64,000 bases of DNA, taken from positions 930,001 through 994,000 of the forward strand of contig JAENYZ010000001.1 in assembly GCA_016841525.1 (NCBI GenBank), given 5' to 3'. The translations under genes and the position numbers were made by a program. Of this stretch, positions 37,846 through 41,732 are shown one piece after another. Positions within the stretch are counted from its first letter, which is position 1, and every line of letters starts with the position of its first letter. The notes beneath the pieces are model-generated. The model was not told where the DNA came from and did not search any database. It saw only the letters and a program-made list of their open reading frames with translations. Source of the stretch: Anaerolineaceae bacterium (GTDB taxonomy: Bacteria; Chloroflexota; Anaerolineae; Anaerolineales; Anaerolineaceae).

Positions 37846-38361
37846 CTACTTATTCGGAGCAAGCATCATGAACATCGTTCGCCCCTCTAATTTCGGGGCT
37901 TGTTCCACTTCTGAAACATCCGATAATTCTTCCGCGATCTCTCGCAAATCTTCCAGAGCAATTTCTGGGTAGGTGATTTCGCGTCCCCGGAATCGAATGG
38001 TCACTCGAACCTTCATTCCGTCATTCAACCACCGGCGTGCATCCCGGACTTTGAATCCTTTGTGGTGATCGGTCGTTTTTGGGCGCAAACGGATCTCTTT
38101 GATCTCGATTTTTGTCTGCGATTTCCGTGCTTCGCGTTCTTTCTTTTCCTTTTCGTAAAGAAATTTACTGAAGTTCATGATCCTGGCGACCGGTGGGTTA
38201 GCGTTTGGAGCGACTTCTACCAGGTCAAACCCTGCTTCTTCTGCCCGAGTCAGACCTTCCCGCAGACTGACAACACCTACGTTTTCACCATCCTGATCAA
38301 TTAATCGAATTGATGTTGCACGGATTTGCTTGTTGATCCGAAAATCATCTTTGTTACTTAT
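37846..38361 (-). CDS. infC: Translation initiation factor IF-3 with non-canonical start (probably ATA)
   Basis: 171 residues if started at ATA 38361. N-domain: KDDFRINKQIRATSIRLIDQDGENVGVVSL...FDLVEVAPNANPPVARIMNFSK; C-domain: EIRLRPKTTDHHKGFKVRDARRWL...GREITYPEIALEDL. The frame stays open upstream of 38361 but contains no ATG, GTG or TTG before residue FDLVE..IM (the internal ATG at 38178 would remove the whole N-domain). AAGGAGAG (38370-38377) sits 8-10 bases before ATA. An AUU/AUA start that IF-3 itself discriminates against is the known autoregulation principle of infC in E. coli. Operon: thrS, RAYT island, infC, rpmI, rplT. Confidence 0.92.
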   Translation of the reverse strand: MSNKDDFRINKQIRATSIRLIDQDGENVGVVSLREGLTRAEEAGFDLVEVAPNANPPVARIMNFSKFLYEKEKKEREARKSQTKIEIKEIRLRPKTTDHHKGFKVRDARRWLNDGMKVRVTIRFRGREITYPEIALEDLREIAEELSDVSEVEQAPKLEGRTMFMMLAPNK

Positions 38362-38546
38362 AGTTAACGCTCTCCTTCTGATAAAATCATCATGATTAAC
38401 ACAAACATTATTCCCATTAAGGGAACGGACTTCATATTACCATATATTTGAGGGAATCGTCAACAGATTCCAGAAAGTTATTGTTTGAGAATTGCTGAGT
38501 TTTGCTCTGTTGCAAATGCAATTCCATACTAGACGCTGTACCAATT

Positions 38547-38575
38547 GTTCTCTCTGGTGTCTCACCAGAGAGAAC
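38547..38575. repeat. REP-like hairpin a
   Basis: Perfect palindrome: GTTCTCTCTGGTG, loop TCT, CACCAGAGAGAAC (13-bp arms). Core GGTG/CACC; on the minus strand the loop reads AGA. Confidence 0.85.
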
Positions 38576-38621
38576 CCTATCCGATATCCCTGGTCCCCTA
38601 CCAACATTATCAAGAAAGGTC

Positions 38622-38642
38622 ATCTCGGTGAGACACCGGGAT
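38622..38642. repeat. REP-like hairpin b
   Basis: ATCTCGGTG, loop AGA, CACCGGGAT; one mismatch in the arms. Same AGA loop class as hairpins a and f. Confidence 0.8.
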
Positions 38643-38667
38643 GATCATAAGATACCCACTACCAGAT

Positions 38668-38691
38668 CGTTCTGGTGTCCCCACCAGAACG
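38668..38691. repeat. REP-like hairpin c
   Basis: Perfect 10-bp arms CGTTCTGGTG / CACCAGAACG with loop TCCC (GGGA on the minus strand). Confidence 0.85.
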
Positions 38692-38712
38692 AGAACTGAT
38701 GCAAACACACCT

Positions 38713-38757
38713 GATCTCCCATCCCGCTGGTGAGGACACCAGCAGGATCATGAGATC
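38713..38757. repeat. REP-like hairpin d
   Basis: Core GCTGGTG, loop AGGA, CACCAGC, extended by imperfect outer pairing ATCC/GGAT and GATCTC/GAGATC. Lies 45 bases downstream of the transposase stop codon. Confidence 0.85.
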
Positions 38758-38802
38758 AAATAGGAATGTGAAACATTATAAAATCACCATCACAACTGCC
38801 CA

Positions 38803-39351
38803 CTACTCCGTCTCTTCAATCAACGTTGAAATTGGGATCTCACCTTCCTGCCCACTTACCCAATATGCTGCTGAGGAATATCGCCAAGCTTCAGGTACGT
38901 CCACAAATCCTTTCCTGACCGGATTTTGATGGATATATTCCACTTTTTGATTTAAAAACGCTTCACTCGCCAATGCCTCGGCGTGCCAGCCCGGTATCCA
39001 AACCAGTCTTCTGCGATCATTCAATGAATTATTTCGAATAACTCTCGAAAGCGATGTGGCAAGATTATTATCAACATAGTCTGCCAACTTGTGCCCGGTG
39101 AATTTTCTAAATTCAGCTAGAGTCATCTGCAAATGGGCATTATCAAATTTTGCATCAAAAACCACCATGTGAAGGTGATTAGGCATGATCACATAAGCGT
39201 AAACTCTCAGGGATCTCTCATTGATACAAAAATTCAAATTGTCGGTAATAATATTTATAGGTTCTCGATTAATGAAAATGGGCAGCCAATCTACCACCTT
39301 GAAAGTCACAAAGTAAAGGTAAACACCTTCGATAAATTTAAAGCTGTCCAT
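38803..39351 (-). CDS. REP-associated tyrosine transposase (RAYT, IS200-like Y1 family)
   Basis: 182 residues. HUH motif MPNHLHMVV gives His59 and His61 for the metal; the catalytic tyrosine is Tyr139 in KVEYIHQNPVRKGFV, followed by PEAWRYSSAAYW, the hallmark of RAYT/TnpA-REP proteins. These are single-copy domesticated relatives of IS200/IS605 transposases that nick and join single-stranded DNA at REP hairpins. Seven REP-like hairpins flank the gene (four on the infC side, three on the thrS side), so enzyme and substrates are found together. The gene has no visible ribosome binding site and may be read from the thrS transcript. Confidence 0.9.
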   Translation of the reverse strand: MDSFKFIEGVYLYFVTFKVVDWLPIFINREPINIITDNLNFCINERSLRVYAYVIMPNHLHMVVFDAKFDNAHLQMTLAEFRKFTGHKLADYVDNNLATSLSRVIRNNSLNDRRRLVWIPGWHAEALASEAFLNQKVEYIHQNPVRKGFVDVPEAWRYSSAAYWVSGQEGEIPISTLIEETE

Positions 39352-39424
39352 GAAATTATTATATATTGAAATTTCTTAAACTTTGGGAGGGTGATTAAAA
39401 TCCAAAATGTCAATTTCAGCTTTT

Positions 39425-39454
39425 GATGTGGCTGGTGAGGACACCAGCCACATC
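39425..39454. repeat. REP-like hairpin e
   Basis: Perfect 13-bp arms GATGTGGCTGGTG / CACCAGCCACATC, loop AGGA, the same loop as hairpin d on the other side of the transposase. Confidence 0.85.
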
Positions 39455-39479
39455 TTGAATGTATATCAATCACCATAAT

Positions 39480-39512
39480 AAGATAATCCCGGTGAGACAC
39501 CGGGATTATCTT
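39480..39512. repeat. REP-like hairpin f
   Basis: Perfect 15-bp arms AAGATAATCCCGGTG / CACCGGGATTATCTT, loop AGA. The longest of the set. Confidence 0.85.
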
Positions 39513-39541
39513 AAGCTTGTTAATTTCACTGGTTTTTTTGG

Positions 39542-39569
39542 ATCTCACTGGTGTCCCCACCGGTGAGAT
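39542..39569. repeat. REP-like hairpin g
   Basis: ATCTCACTGGTG, loop TCCC, CACCGGTGAGAT with one T-G pair; 53 bases after the thrS stop codon on the minus-strand transcript, so it could also stabilise the thrS 3' end. Confidence 0.8.
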
Positions 39570-39621
39570 TAATGAAAATCATTGGGTCATAACCAACAAA
39601 TTCGTTGCAAAAACGAAAGTT

Positions 39622-41403
39622 CTATCCTTCAACCTTTTCTTCAACATCCTTTATCGCAAGGTCTCTGAAGTCATTCACCAGCATCGCTCCAAGACGCTCG
39701 CCGCTTCGTCGGCGGATATCCACCTGCCCGTTCTCCATCTCGCGATCACCAACCACGAGCATATATGGCACCTTCCGCTTCTCAGCATCTCGGATCTTCG
39801 CATTCATCCGGTCACTTCTATCATCTACTTCAACACGCAAATCCGCTTCTTTAAGCTGCTCGGCAACTTCGTTAGCGAAATCGACATGGCGGTCAGCAAT
39901 CGGGATGATCACTGCCTGGGTTGGCGACAGCCAAACCGGGAATGCGCCGCCGTAATGCTCAATCAACACACCAAAGAAACGCTCAATGCTGCCTAAAAGT
40001 GCCCGGTGAATCATATACGGACGATAAGCTTGACCATCCTCTTCAATGTAGGTCATGTCGAATCGTTCGGGATTATTGAAGTCAAACTGGATCGTCGATA
40101 GCTGCCATTCTCTGCCCAAAGCATCTTTGACCTTCAAATCAATCTTCGGCCCATAGAAAGCACCGCCGCCTTCATCGACATGGTAGGGCAATTCTGCCCG
40201 TTTAAGAGATTGTTCCAATGCTGCTTCAGCATCCTCCCAACGCTGTGGATCGCCAACAGCTTTTTCTGGTCGCGTGCTCAAGTAAGCTTCAATTTCCTGG
40301 AAGCCAAAGGCGCGCAGCATATTCAGGCTGAAGGACAACACAAAATCAATCTCTCCTGGCATCTGGGCAGGGGTGCAGAAGTGATGTGCATCATCCTGGG
40401 TAAAGCCACGTACACGCAGCAAGCCGTGCATCACACCGCTGCGCTCATAACGATAAACCGTGCCTTTTTCAGCATAGCGCATGGGTAAATCACGATATGA
40501 TCGAATGTCCGATTTGTAGATCTCAATGTGGAAGGGGCAGTTCATCGGCTTGAGATAATACTTCTGATCCTCAATCACGATCGGGGCGTACATGTTCTCA
40601 GCATAAAAATCAAGATGCCCACTGGTCTTCCACAAATCAACCTTACCAATGTGAGGCGTGTATACAAAATCATAACCATTTTTCAGATGCTGATCTTCCC
40701 AAAACCGCTCTGCCAAAAAGCGAACCTTAGCGCCGTTTGGATGCCACAAGACAAGCCCTGATCCGACATTATCACTCACGCTGTAAAGGTCAAGTTCCTT
40801 ACCAAGTTTGCGATGATCTCGTTTCTTGGCTTCCTCTAGCTTCCACAAGTATTGCTTCAGATCTTTGGGTGAGAGCCAGGCGGTACCATAGATGCGCTGA
40901 AGCATGGGATTGTGCTCATCGCCGCGCCAGTATGCGCCGGCAACATTCATCAATTTGATCGCCTTGGGATGGATTTTGCCAGTCCTTTCCAGGTGCGGTC
41001 CTCGGCACAGGTCAACAAATGCATCACTCTTATAAATCGTGATGACCTCTTTCTCATCCACCGGGTCACCATGCTCATCCACATCGCCCTTTTCGAGACC
41101 TTCGATCAGCTCAAGTTTGTAGGGCTGATCCGCAAATATTTCACGGGCTTGCTCAGCCGAAACCTCTTCTCGGACAAATTCGCTGTCATTTTTAATGATC
41201 TCCCGCATTCGATCTTCAATTTCCTCGAGATCTTCAGGGGTCAAAGGCCTCGGGAGTTCAAAGTCGTAATAGAAACCGTCCTCAATGGGTGGACCTATTG
41301 CGACTTTTCCTTCCGGAAATTTCTCCAAGACTGCCTGCGCCATCACATGGGCAGCAGAGTGACGTAACCGATATAATTTTGATTCTTCATAATTTTCTGC
41401 CAT
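39622..41403 (-). CDS. thrS: Threonyl-tRNA synthetase without the N-terminal TGS domain
   Basis: 593 residues; GGAGGAGG precedes the ATG. It starts directly at the editing domain (LYRLRHSAAHVMAQAV, with VDLCRGPHLERTGKI), so the about 60-residue TGS domain of long ThrRS is absent. Catalytic core motifs: YLKPMNCPFHIEIYKS, RVRGFTQDDAHHF, GGGAFYGPKIDLKVKDALGR and HRALLGSIERFFGVLIEH; a C-terminal anticodon-binding domain follows. Charges tRNA-Thr and removes mischarged Ser. Expression is under a T-box in the leader. First gene of the translation operon here. Confidence 0.97.
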   Translation of the reverse strand: MAENYEESKLYRLRHSAAHVMAQAVLEKFPEGKVAIGPPIEDGFYYDFELPRPLTPEDLEEIEDRMREIIKNDSEFVREEVSAEQAREIFADQPYKLELIEGLEKGDVDEHGDPVDEKEVITIYKSDAFVDLCRGPHLERTGKIHPKAIKLMNVAGAYWRGDEHNPMLQRIYGTAWLSPKDLKQYLWKLEEAKKRDHRKLGKELDLYSVSDNVGSGLVLWHPNGAKVRFLAERFWEDQHLKNGYDFVYTPHIGKVDLWKTSGHLDFYAENMYAPIVIEDQKYYLKPMNCPFHIEIYKSDIRSYRDLPMRYAEKGTVYRYERSGVMHGLLRVRGFTQDDAHHFCTPAQMPGEIDFVLSFSLNMLRAFGFQEIEAYLSTRPEKAVGDPQRWEDAEAALEQSLKRAELPYHVDEGGGAFYGPKIDLKVKDALGREWQLSTIQFDFNNPERFDMTYIEEDGQAYRPYMIHRALLGSIERFFGVLIEHYGGAFPVWLSPTQAVIIPIADRHVDFANEVAEQLKEADLRVEVDDRSDRMNAKIRDAEKRKVPYMLVVGDREMENGQVDIRRRSGERLGAMLVNDFRDLAIKDVEEKVEG

Positions 41404-41479: not shown

Positions 41480-41720
41480 ACAAAAAACCCTCGCCCACTG
41501 GGGCGAGAGTAATCTCACGCGGTTCCACCCAGATTAGCCGATAATTGTTGTCAGCGGCCATCTCTTGGTGCCGATAACGGGGCAAGCCGTTCACCTTACT
41601 TTGCCTGGGCATTTCGGGGTCATGCTCTCGGGGGGTTTTCTCTGGTTCGTATCTAAGAAGACTTCCAGCCAATGGTCTTCTCTCTCTATTGAACGCAAAC
41701 CCAGTTACTCGTCCCGGTCA
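41480..41720 (-). promoter_or_regulatory. T-box riboswitch (threonine) with terminator, leader of thrS
   Basis: The T-box core TGGGTGGAACCGCG is at 41518-41531 on the minus strand. A terminator hairpin CTCGCCC / GGGCGAG (41490-41507) with a T run follows and competes with the antiterminator. Upstream, a stem I region around 41640-41700 has a candidate specifier ACC (Thr) at 41644-41646 within GATACGAACCAGAG. Uncharged tRNA-Thr would pair with specifier and T-box and switch thrS on. Confidence 0.92.
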
Positions 41721-41726
41721 ACGCAA

Positions 41727-41732
41727 ATTATA
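41727..41732 (-). promoter_or_regulatory. -10 box of the thrS T-box transcript
   Basis: TATAAT on the minus strand, about 7 bases before the start of the leader; the -35 is not well defined. Confidence 0.5.

Follow-up and report, generated by a model that had tools for sequence, protein, structure and literature searches.

A RAYT transposase and its hairpins in a Brevefilum genome: arms that vary in matched pairs

Background

How can the arms of a repeated hairpin differ from copy to copy and still pair? The question is raised by a stretch of 64,000 nucleotides (the window) from an Anaerolineaceae genome of 3.2 Mb, here called G000, in which a transposase gene lies among palindromes between thrS and infC. 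The original prediction, made from the window alone, was of a living RAYT acting on REP hairpins, inserted into an operon, with arms that had co-varied and hairpins that might tune the neighbouring genes.

As far as the available parts of the sources go, REP stems that vary with complementarity kept are already in print (PMC2817692, PMC3733652), including subfamilies with other, still complementary residues in the stem (PMC3733652), and so are classes without GTAG (PMC6006769). Whether such pairing has a selective or a mutational cause can be tested directly on orthologous hairpins. A sister species, with genome G006, provides them; its contig C15 is identical to JARGGB010000023.1 of Brevefilum sp. 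C14-21, and by this genome the genus is Brevefilum.

Results and discussion

The transposase gene

The gene occupies positions 38803-39351 of the window (minus strand) and encodes 182 amino acids, with an HUH motif at N58-H59-L60-H61 and a catalytic tyrosine predicted at Tyr139. The product matches NCBIfam NF047646 (REP_Tyr_transpos) with 96 bits against a cut-off of 80, a cut-off also passed by all nine other RAYT proteins and by one more; all 11 aligned relatives have N58, H59, H61 and Y139 unchanged. This agrees with the original prediction of a RAYT with an HUH motif and Tyr139. A profile search with the protein retrieved E. coli TnpA-REP (PDB 4er8, E 1e-7), Tyr139 aligning with its Tyr115 by position counted on the profile alignment. 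The same structure is the best Foldseek match of the predicted model (E 1.5e-6, TM 0.59/0.64), a model of moderate confidence (mean pLDDT 68) built from 7 sequences. A Pfam scan of the protein at E 0.001 returned no family.

We rejected the idea of an IS200/IS605 element. The IS200 model NF033573 is absent among matches of the RAYT protein up to E 1, and there is one close copy per genome in six genomes rather than multiple mobile copies. Orthologs 63-81% identical are present in 6 of 16 genomes of the genus (G000, G006, G011, G012, G013 and G015). The frame is intact in all six, which agrees with the RAYT being "living", as had been proposed; its activity is a prediction from sequence.

A second, distant RAYT is encoded elsewhere in G000 (L022, G000:C9:543922-547371). 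It is 33% identical and scores 172 bits against NF047646. It adjoins 221-bp tandem repeats, and the five hairpins around it all read GGCGGGATGTAACCGCATCCCGCC, quite unlike the hairpins at thrS-infC with their variable arms.

Seven hairpins at the RAYT locus

All seven palindromes originally described, with the tip GGTG-loop-CACC, the same loop types and both orientations, were found within 38547-39570. Four lie 3' of the RAYT gene: H1 (38547-38575, plus strand) with 13-bp arms, loop TCT and a GTTC foot; H2 (38618-38646, minus) with loop AGA on the plus strand and a GATC tag on the minus strand; H3 (38665-38694, plus) with loop TCCC and tag GATC; and H4 (38720-38749, minus) with loop AGGA on the plus strand and GATC on the minus strand. 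Three lie 5' of it: H5 (39425-39454, minus) with 13-bp arms, loop AGGA on the plus strand and a GATG tag on the minus strand; H6 (39479-39513, minus) with 16-bp arms and loop AGA on the plus strand; and H7 (39541-39570, plus) with loop TCCC and tag GATC. Read along the plus strand the loops are therefore TCT, AGA, TCCC and AGGA, then the gene, then AGGA, AGA and TCCC. H1/H2 and H3/H4 form inverted pairs; the remaining pairs in G000 are direct. Folded as single-stranded DNA, each of the seven does better than any of 200 shuffles (z -4.4 to -9.9). A G.T pair is present in the stems at 38618 and 39541, and an A.C mismatch in that at 38720. A known Rfam family over the hairpins was considered and discarded, the matches being sub-threshold only.

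Copies elsewhere in the genome

The original prediction stood to fall if the genome held no further hairpins. The whole of G000 contains GGTGAGACACC six times and GGTGRGGACACC 14 times, each with a control count of 0. There are 20 strict-tip sites, degenerate copies being left out of the count; the RAYT locus accounts for seven of them, and contig C5, from 655 to 780 kb, for most of the rest. The extragenic copies elsewhere thus remove that objection. With the loop unspecified, the pattern GATC-N5-GGTG-N3-4-CACC has 12 matches in G000 (control 0), of which 10 carry family loops. The stem is unconvincing at no fewer than four of the 20 sites (L001, L006, L028:11167 and L030:5485).

When three sites with a variant tip are included, 20 of 23 lie outside ORFs of at least 110 aa. 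The other three are H7, which overlaps an antisense frame at the end of thrS, and L032 and L033, which are tips without arms. Five strict-tip hairpins are found in L027 and L028 (G000:C5:705-745 kb), a region for which two queries (2.0 and 4.8 kb) gave no syntenic counterpart in G006 or G008. Among cases read by eye, it is the sense strand that carries the pyrimidine loop in hairpins of L024, L027, L028 and L030 that lie between or after co-directional ORFs. An orientation bias of hairpins away from the RAYT is possible.

Distribution within and beyond the genus

Counts of GGTG and GGTC tips follow the transposase. The six genomes with a RAYT ortholog have 17 (G000), 27 (G006), 19 (G011), 13 (G012), 28 (G013) and 16 (G015); eight of the ten without it have between 0 and 5. 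The exceptions are G004 with 19 tips and G008 with 7, assemblies that are 69% and 71% complete, and the RAYT may be absent from them through incompleteness. In G000, 14 tips are GGTG (with a strict four-base loop) and 3 are GGTC. G012, which likewise has its RAYT between thrS and infC, has 12 GGTC tips and one GGTG tip, so the pair closing the loop has been swapped while the loop was kept.

A profile search of Chloroflexota found RAYT matches in 13 of 400 genomes, and a pattern scan contributed loci from Armatimonadota, Cloacimonadota and Patescibacteria (L157-L161). We examined 25 RAYT loci, 6 in the genus and 19 outside it. A perfect hairpin (arm of at least 8, loop of 3-5) lies within 500 nt of the RAYT in 22 of the 25, and two or more in 15, a density of 2.64 per kb. 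Among 22 control thrS loci, three of them RAYT-adjacent, 12 have a hairpin and 8 have two or more (1.00 per kb). Outside the genus, ten RAYT loci have at least two hairpins; in eight of these, judged by eye, the hairpins have a loop or tip in common and differing arms. The arms are identical at L168 and L171, so arm drift is not universal. One distant Chloroflexota RAYT (L169, from G383) has at least six hairpins with the tip CAGT-NNN-ACTG (1329-1468 and 2056-2138 of the locus), with differing arms and in both orientations.

The foot tag and the strand

The hairpins are not symmetric at the foot. On the strand whose loop contains GGA, the 3' foot is GATC in 23 of 38 sites of G000, G004, G006 and G008, and GAAC (GTTC on the opposite strand) in 17 of 26 sites of G011, G013 and G015; these are the sites that passed a filter for a stem, out of 47 and 32. 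At positions 7-9 of the GGA strand, information on the 3' side (1.4-1.6 bits in the first set, 1.5-1.9 in the second) exceeds that on the 5' side (0.1-0.9 and 0.1-0.5). Since it is the 3' foot of the GGA strand that is conserved, the strand with the pyrimidine loop carries a 5' GATC or GTTC tag. This tag occupies the place where classic REPs have GTAG, and replaces the 5' GTAG or GTGG by which these are recognized. Nine REPIN-like dimers of 62-79 bp, of the form GTT(C/T)...(G/C)AAC, occur in 16 loci of G011, G013 and G015.

The thrS-infC gap and a possible role in mRNA

Upstream of the locus, thrS (39622-41403, minus; Pfam tRNA-synt_2b, HGTP_anticodon, tRNA_SAD) is preceded by a T-box leader (41496-41730, minus; Rfam RF00230, 99.7 bits, gathering 93). 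Downstream, infC encodes an IF3 of 171 aa (37846-38361, minus; Pfam IF3_C). We place its start at an ATA codon at 38361, as against the start at 38178 in the ORF list. This ATA (38359-38361, minus) follows a good ribosome-binding sequence and is kept in 10 of 10 genomes of the genus.

The RAYT was originally described as inserted in the operon. It does lie between thrS and infC in G000, G006 and G012, a position that it has in these three genomes only; other insertions occupy the gap in G015 and G013. The gap is 188-275 nt in five relatives, 913 nt in G015 and 1358 nt in G013. The insertion in G015 (L092 878-1243) contains a gene for a DUF559 protein, and that in G013 (L130 5892-7249) consists of different sequence, some 1.36 kb long. 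With regard to a common origin of the RAYT insertion in G000/G006 and G012, a tree of thrS groups G012 with G005 and G014, neither of which has a RAYT ortholog. No GGTG or GGTC tip with a loop of 3-4 nt is present in the gap of the seven genus genomes that lack a RAYT there (in G010 the gap has GGTG-TT-CACC), so the second ground on which the original prediction might have been refuted, the same hairpins conserved at this place without the transposase, falls away as well.

Could the hairpins act in the mRNA of thrS or infC, as terminators or as signals for stability or attenuation? The extragenic position of most sites would suit such a role, and REPs elsewhere are often transcribed, according to the part of the source available (PMC3733652). 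For infC, however, all seven hairpins lie on the far side of a promoter-like site (TTGACG-N18-TAATAT with TG; 38434-38463, minus), and a transcript begun at that site would therefore lack them. TTGACG...TGGTAAKAT stands directly upstream of infC in 10 of 10 genus genomes examined with thrS and infC adjacent, and our reading of the site rests on this conservation and not on a simple promoter scan, which gave no excess of promoter-like sites (7 against 6.4 expected). We therefore rejected the hairpins as an RNA element for infC, and the earlier suggestion that they tune its expression is not supported. More generally, two sites in L031 lie between divergent ORFs, the tag is strand-asymmetric, and copies cluster by RAYT-bearing genome rather than by particular genes. 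Taken as a whole, a function of the hairpins in mRNA seems to us very improbable.

Arms vary from copy to copy and remain paired

Twenty sites of G000, picked by their tip and none by their arms, were compared over seven positions per arm. The arms pair at 75.7% of positions, against 44.2% for shuffled partners (sd 4.0, maximum 57.9%; 5000 shuffles, none as high as observed). In G006 (17 sites) the figures are 79.8% against 46.1%, and in G011, G013 and G015 together (32 sites) 60.7% against 50.0%, again with none of 5000 shuffles reaching them. Slid partners pair at 20-38% in G000 and at 15-42% over all sets. Chance palindromes are ruled out by these shuffles, by the folding shuffles and by the control counts of 0. 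Thirteen copies in G000 are stemmed (at least 5 of 6 positions paired) and have 13 distinct arm hexamers, so the co-variation of arms with pairing kept, as first proposed, is borne out. Arms are more uniform in G011, G013 and G015, with AGCGAG in 8 of 26 and AGCAAG in 5 of 26. A paired difference beside the RAYT can be seen by eye there, TTGCT/AGCAA in G015 against TCGCT/AGCGA in G011 and G013.

As to an excess of G.U of the RNA type, eighteen cells in 27 stemmed hairpins are not Watson-Crick; on the GGA strand G.T accounts for 3 and A.C for 8, small counts. The idea that template switching shows itself generally in pairing that runs on past the tag was dropped, as positions 10-13 pair at only 18-34% (filtered sites of G000, G004, G006 and G008).

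Paired changes and inverted loops in orthologous hairpins

Aligned DNA of G000 and G006 differs at 10.1% over 82,916 bases. Hairpins of G000 with a counterpart in the examined stretches of G006 were picked by hand and anchored on the tip, which gave 12 orthologous hairpins with 149 base pairs. Seven pairs have changed on both sides, all of them to another Watson-Crick pair; broken doubles number 0, and 18 pairs have changed on one side. Under independence 0.57 paired doubles would be expected (Poisson P 2e-6). These changes, drawn from two genomes, are not polarised by an outgroup. The control, 45 hairpins outside the family with 372 pairs, has 58 singles, 3 broken doubles and not one paired double (for paired doubles, family against control, Fisher P 1.4e-4). 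The difference is less marked with stricter controls, P being 0.045 (arms of at least 8; 9 hairpins, 94 pairs) and 0.20 (arms of at least 9; 4 hairpins, 46 pairs). An automatic comparison, in which gaps were misplaced in several hairpins, had given 6 doubles in the family (10 hairpins, 121 pairs) and 0 doubles with one flagged loop inversion in the control (7 hairpins, 84 pairs); it is superseded by the tip-anchored pairs.

Against G006, H2 has a paired C-G to G-C change, H3 T-A to C-G, H4 G-C to A-T and H5 G-C to C-G, and H6 has two adjacent paired changes. The loop itself is inverted in place, as an exact reverse complement, at 2 of the 12 sites, H7 and L031:9943; in H7, TCCC in G000 is GGGA in G006. 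A third inverted loop (L025:16860) has one further substitution. Outside the no-gap, tip-anchored set, one hairpin that does not belong to the family (L025:16700) came out as loop-inverted in the gapped automatic alignment.

One might suppose that a hairpin was simply replaced by another REP copy, through re-insertion or gene conversion. The arm of H6 in G006, GGGAAGATC, does recur in a neighbouring hairpin of that genome (L118:4827), and G006 carries extra tandem hairpins at the RAYT locus, where the counterpart of H1 is ambiguous. Against this, most orthologous hairpins differ by one pair, with the remaining arm and the flanks aligning; without H6 there are still 5 paired doubles against 0.48 expected (P 1.4e-4); and donors are few, because all 13 stemmed arms of G000 differ. 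Replacement is in our opinion improbable.

A more serious competitor keeps the same REPtron and has pairing maintained by ordinary compensatory selection, the RAYT or the host needing an intact stem. Nunvar et al. explained the preservation of REP palindromes by "selection for complementary mutations" (PMC2817692), and group 3 systems cleave less well when the stem has a mismatch (PMC8266576), going by the portions of both papers available. The seven hairpins of the RAYT locus, moreover, hold six of the seven paired doubles, and those elsewhere one in 61 pairs (P 0.18), a concentration that such selection could account for. On the other hand, 7 paired and 0 broken doubles at about 10% divergence are 12 times the expectation, selection on pairing leaves the inversion of a loop in place unexplained, and there is no obvious reason why dispersed old copies should be selected one by one. 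We hold compensatory selection to be unlikely, if less so than replacement.

A proposed explanation

The system is a REPtron, a single RAYT gene together with the REP hairpins cognate to it. Family membership, conservation of tag and tip, pairing, paired changes and loop inversions are seen in the sequences themselves. The explanation that we prefer, and regard as moderately probable, is that its arms drift as matched pairs through template switching while the RAYT reads loop and tag. The RAYT would act on the single strand whose loop is of the pyrimidine form, TCCY or TCT, and whose foot bears GATC or GTTC as a 5' tag, and the arm sequence would be free provided that the arms pair. By analogy with group 3 systems, the RAYT may recognize and cleave this strand; there, loop and pairing weigh more than stem sequence, and a reversed loop severely impairs cleavage (PMC8266576, in the part available).

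Hairpin copies would mostly be old and stay in place. A replicating polymerase may switch template within the inverted repeat and so sometimes copy a mutation of one arm into the other, and arms in which this happens would drift as matched pairs. A switch spanning the tip would invert the loop and turn the REP to the other strand; if reversed loops impair cleavage here as in group 3, the flip would move the substrate to that strand. Homogenised arms and inverted spacers are together the signature of template switching at quasi-palindromes in the portions available of PMC8604942 and PMC8794818, so one process fits both kinds of change. The data suggest template switching as the cause of the paired changes and loop flips, and any part played by nicking by the RAYT would be a further step. 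A bolder version, which we put forward tentatively, is that a REP consists of loop and foot tag only, its arms being re-matched by template switching that is perhaps provoked by nicks, with the flip alternating the cleavable strand.

Comparison with known systems

The closest published relatives, judged from the available part of PMC8266576, are the group 3 REPtrons of Stenotrophomonas (Sm) and Marinomonas (Mb). They share an HUH/Tyr RAYT, perfect-palindrome REPs, a 5' tag, strand specificity and a small loop whose sequence matters in a stem that is tolerant if paired; their tag is GTAG rather than GATC or GTTC, whereas the present arms vary from copy to copy, copies number tens at most, and the system is known by sequence. 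E. coli TnpA-REP is the best match in sequence and fold and likewise has REPs that flank the gene and occur elsewhere, but E. coli REPs are bulged and carry GTAG, while the Anaerolineae hairpins are unbulged. The GTAG and CGTC REP families, as presented in part of PMC3733652, are also extragenic palindromes with a terminal tag; the tag here is neither of these and the diversity is from one copy to the next. Palindromes near the gene are also found in TnpA-REP classes 2.6 and 3, which lack GT(A/G)G; by the description available (PMC6006769) they are weaker structures, in contrast to the strong stems here.

REPs usually exceed 100 copies, unlike the 20 strict-tip sites of G000. The present system differs from known REPtrons in the GATC/GTTC tag, the low copy number and the swap of GGTG to GGTC in a relative. 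The paired changes and loop inversions in orthologous hairpins are new, and are the most informative result. Template switching at quasi-palindromes is not linked to RAYTs or REPs in the available portions of PMC8604942 and PMC8794818, and among the papers searched there was none treating both repetitive extragenic palindromes and template switching, and none on Brevefilum together with transposase.

Conclusion

Hairpins that are defined by their loop, lack GTAG and accompany a RAYT are now extended to Chloroflexota and, by the loci examined, to Armatimonadota, Cloacimonadota and Patescibacteria. Confirmation of template switching would mean that the upkeep of REP palindromes needs no selection on each copy and that the diversity of arms from copy to copy follows naturally. 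The strand chosen as substrate by a single-strand transposase would then be reversible.
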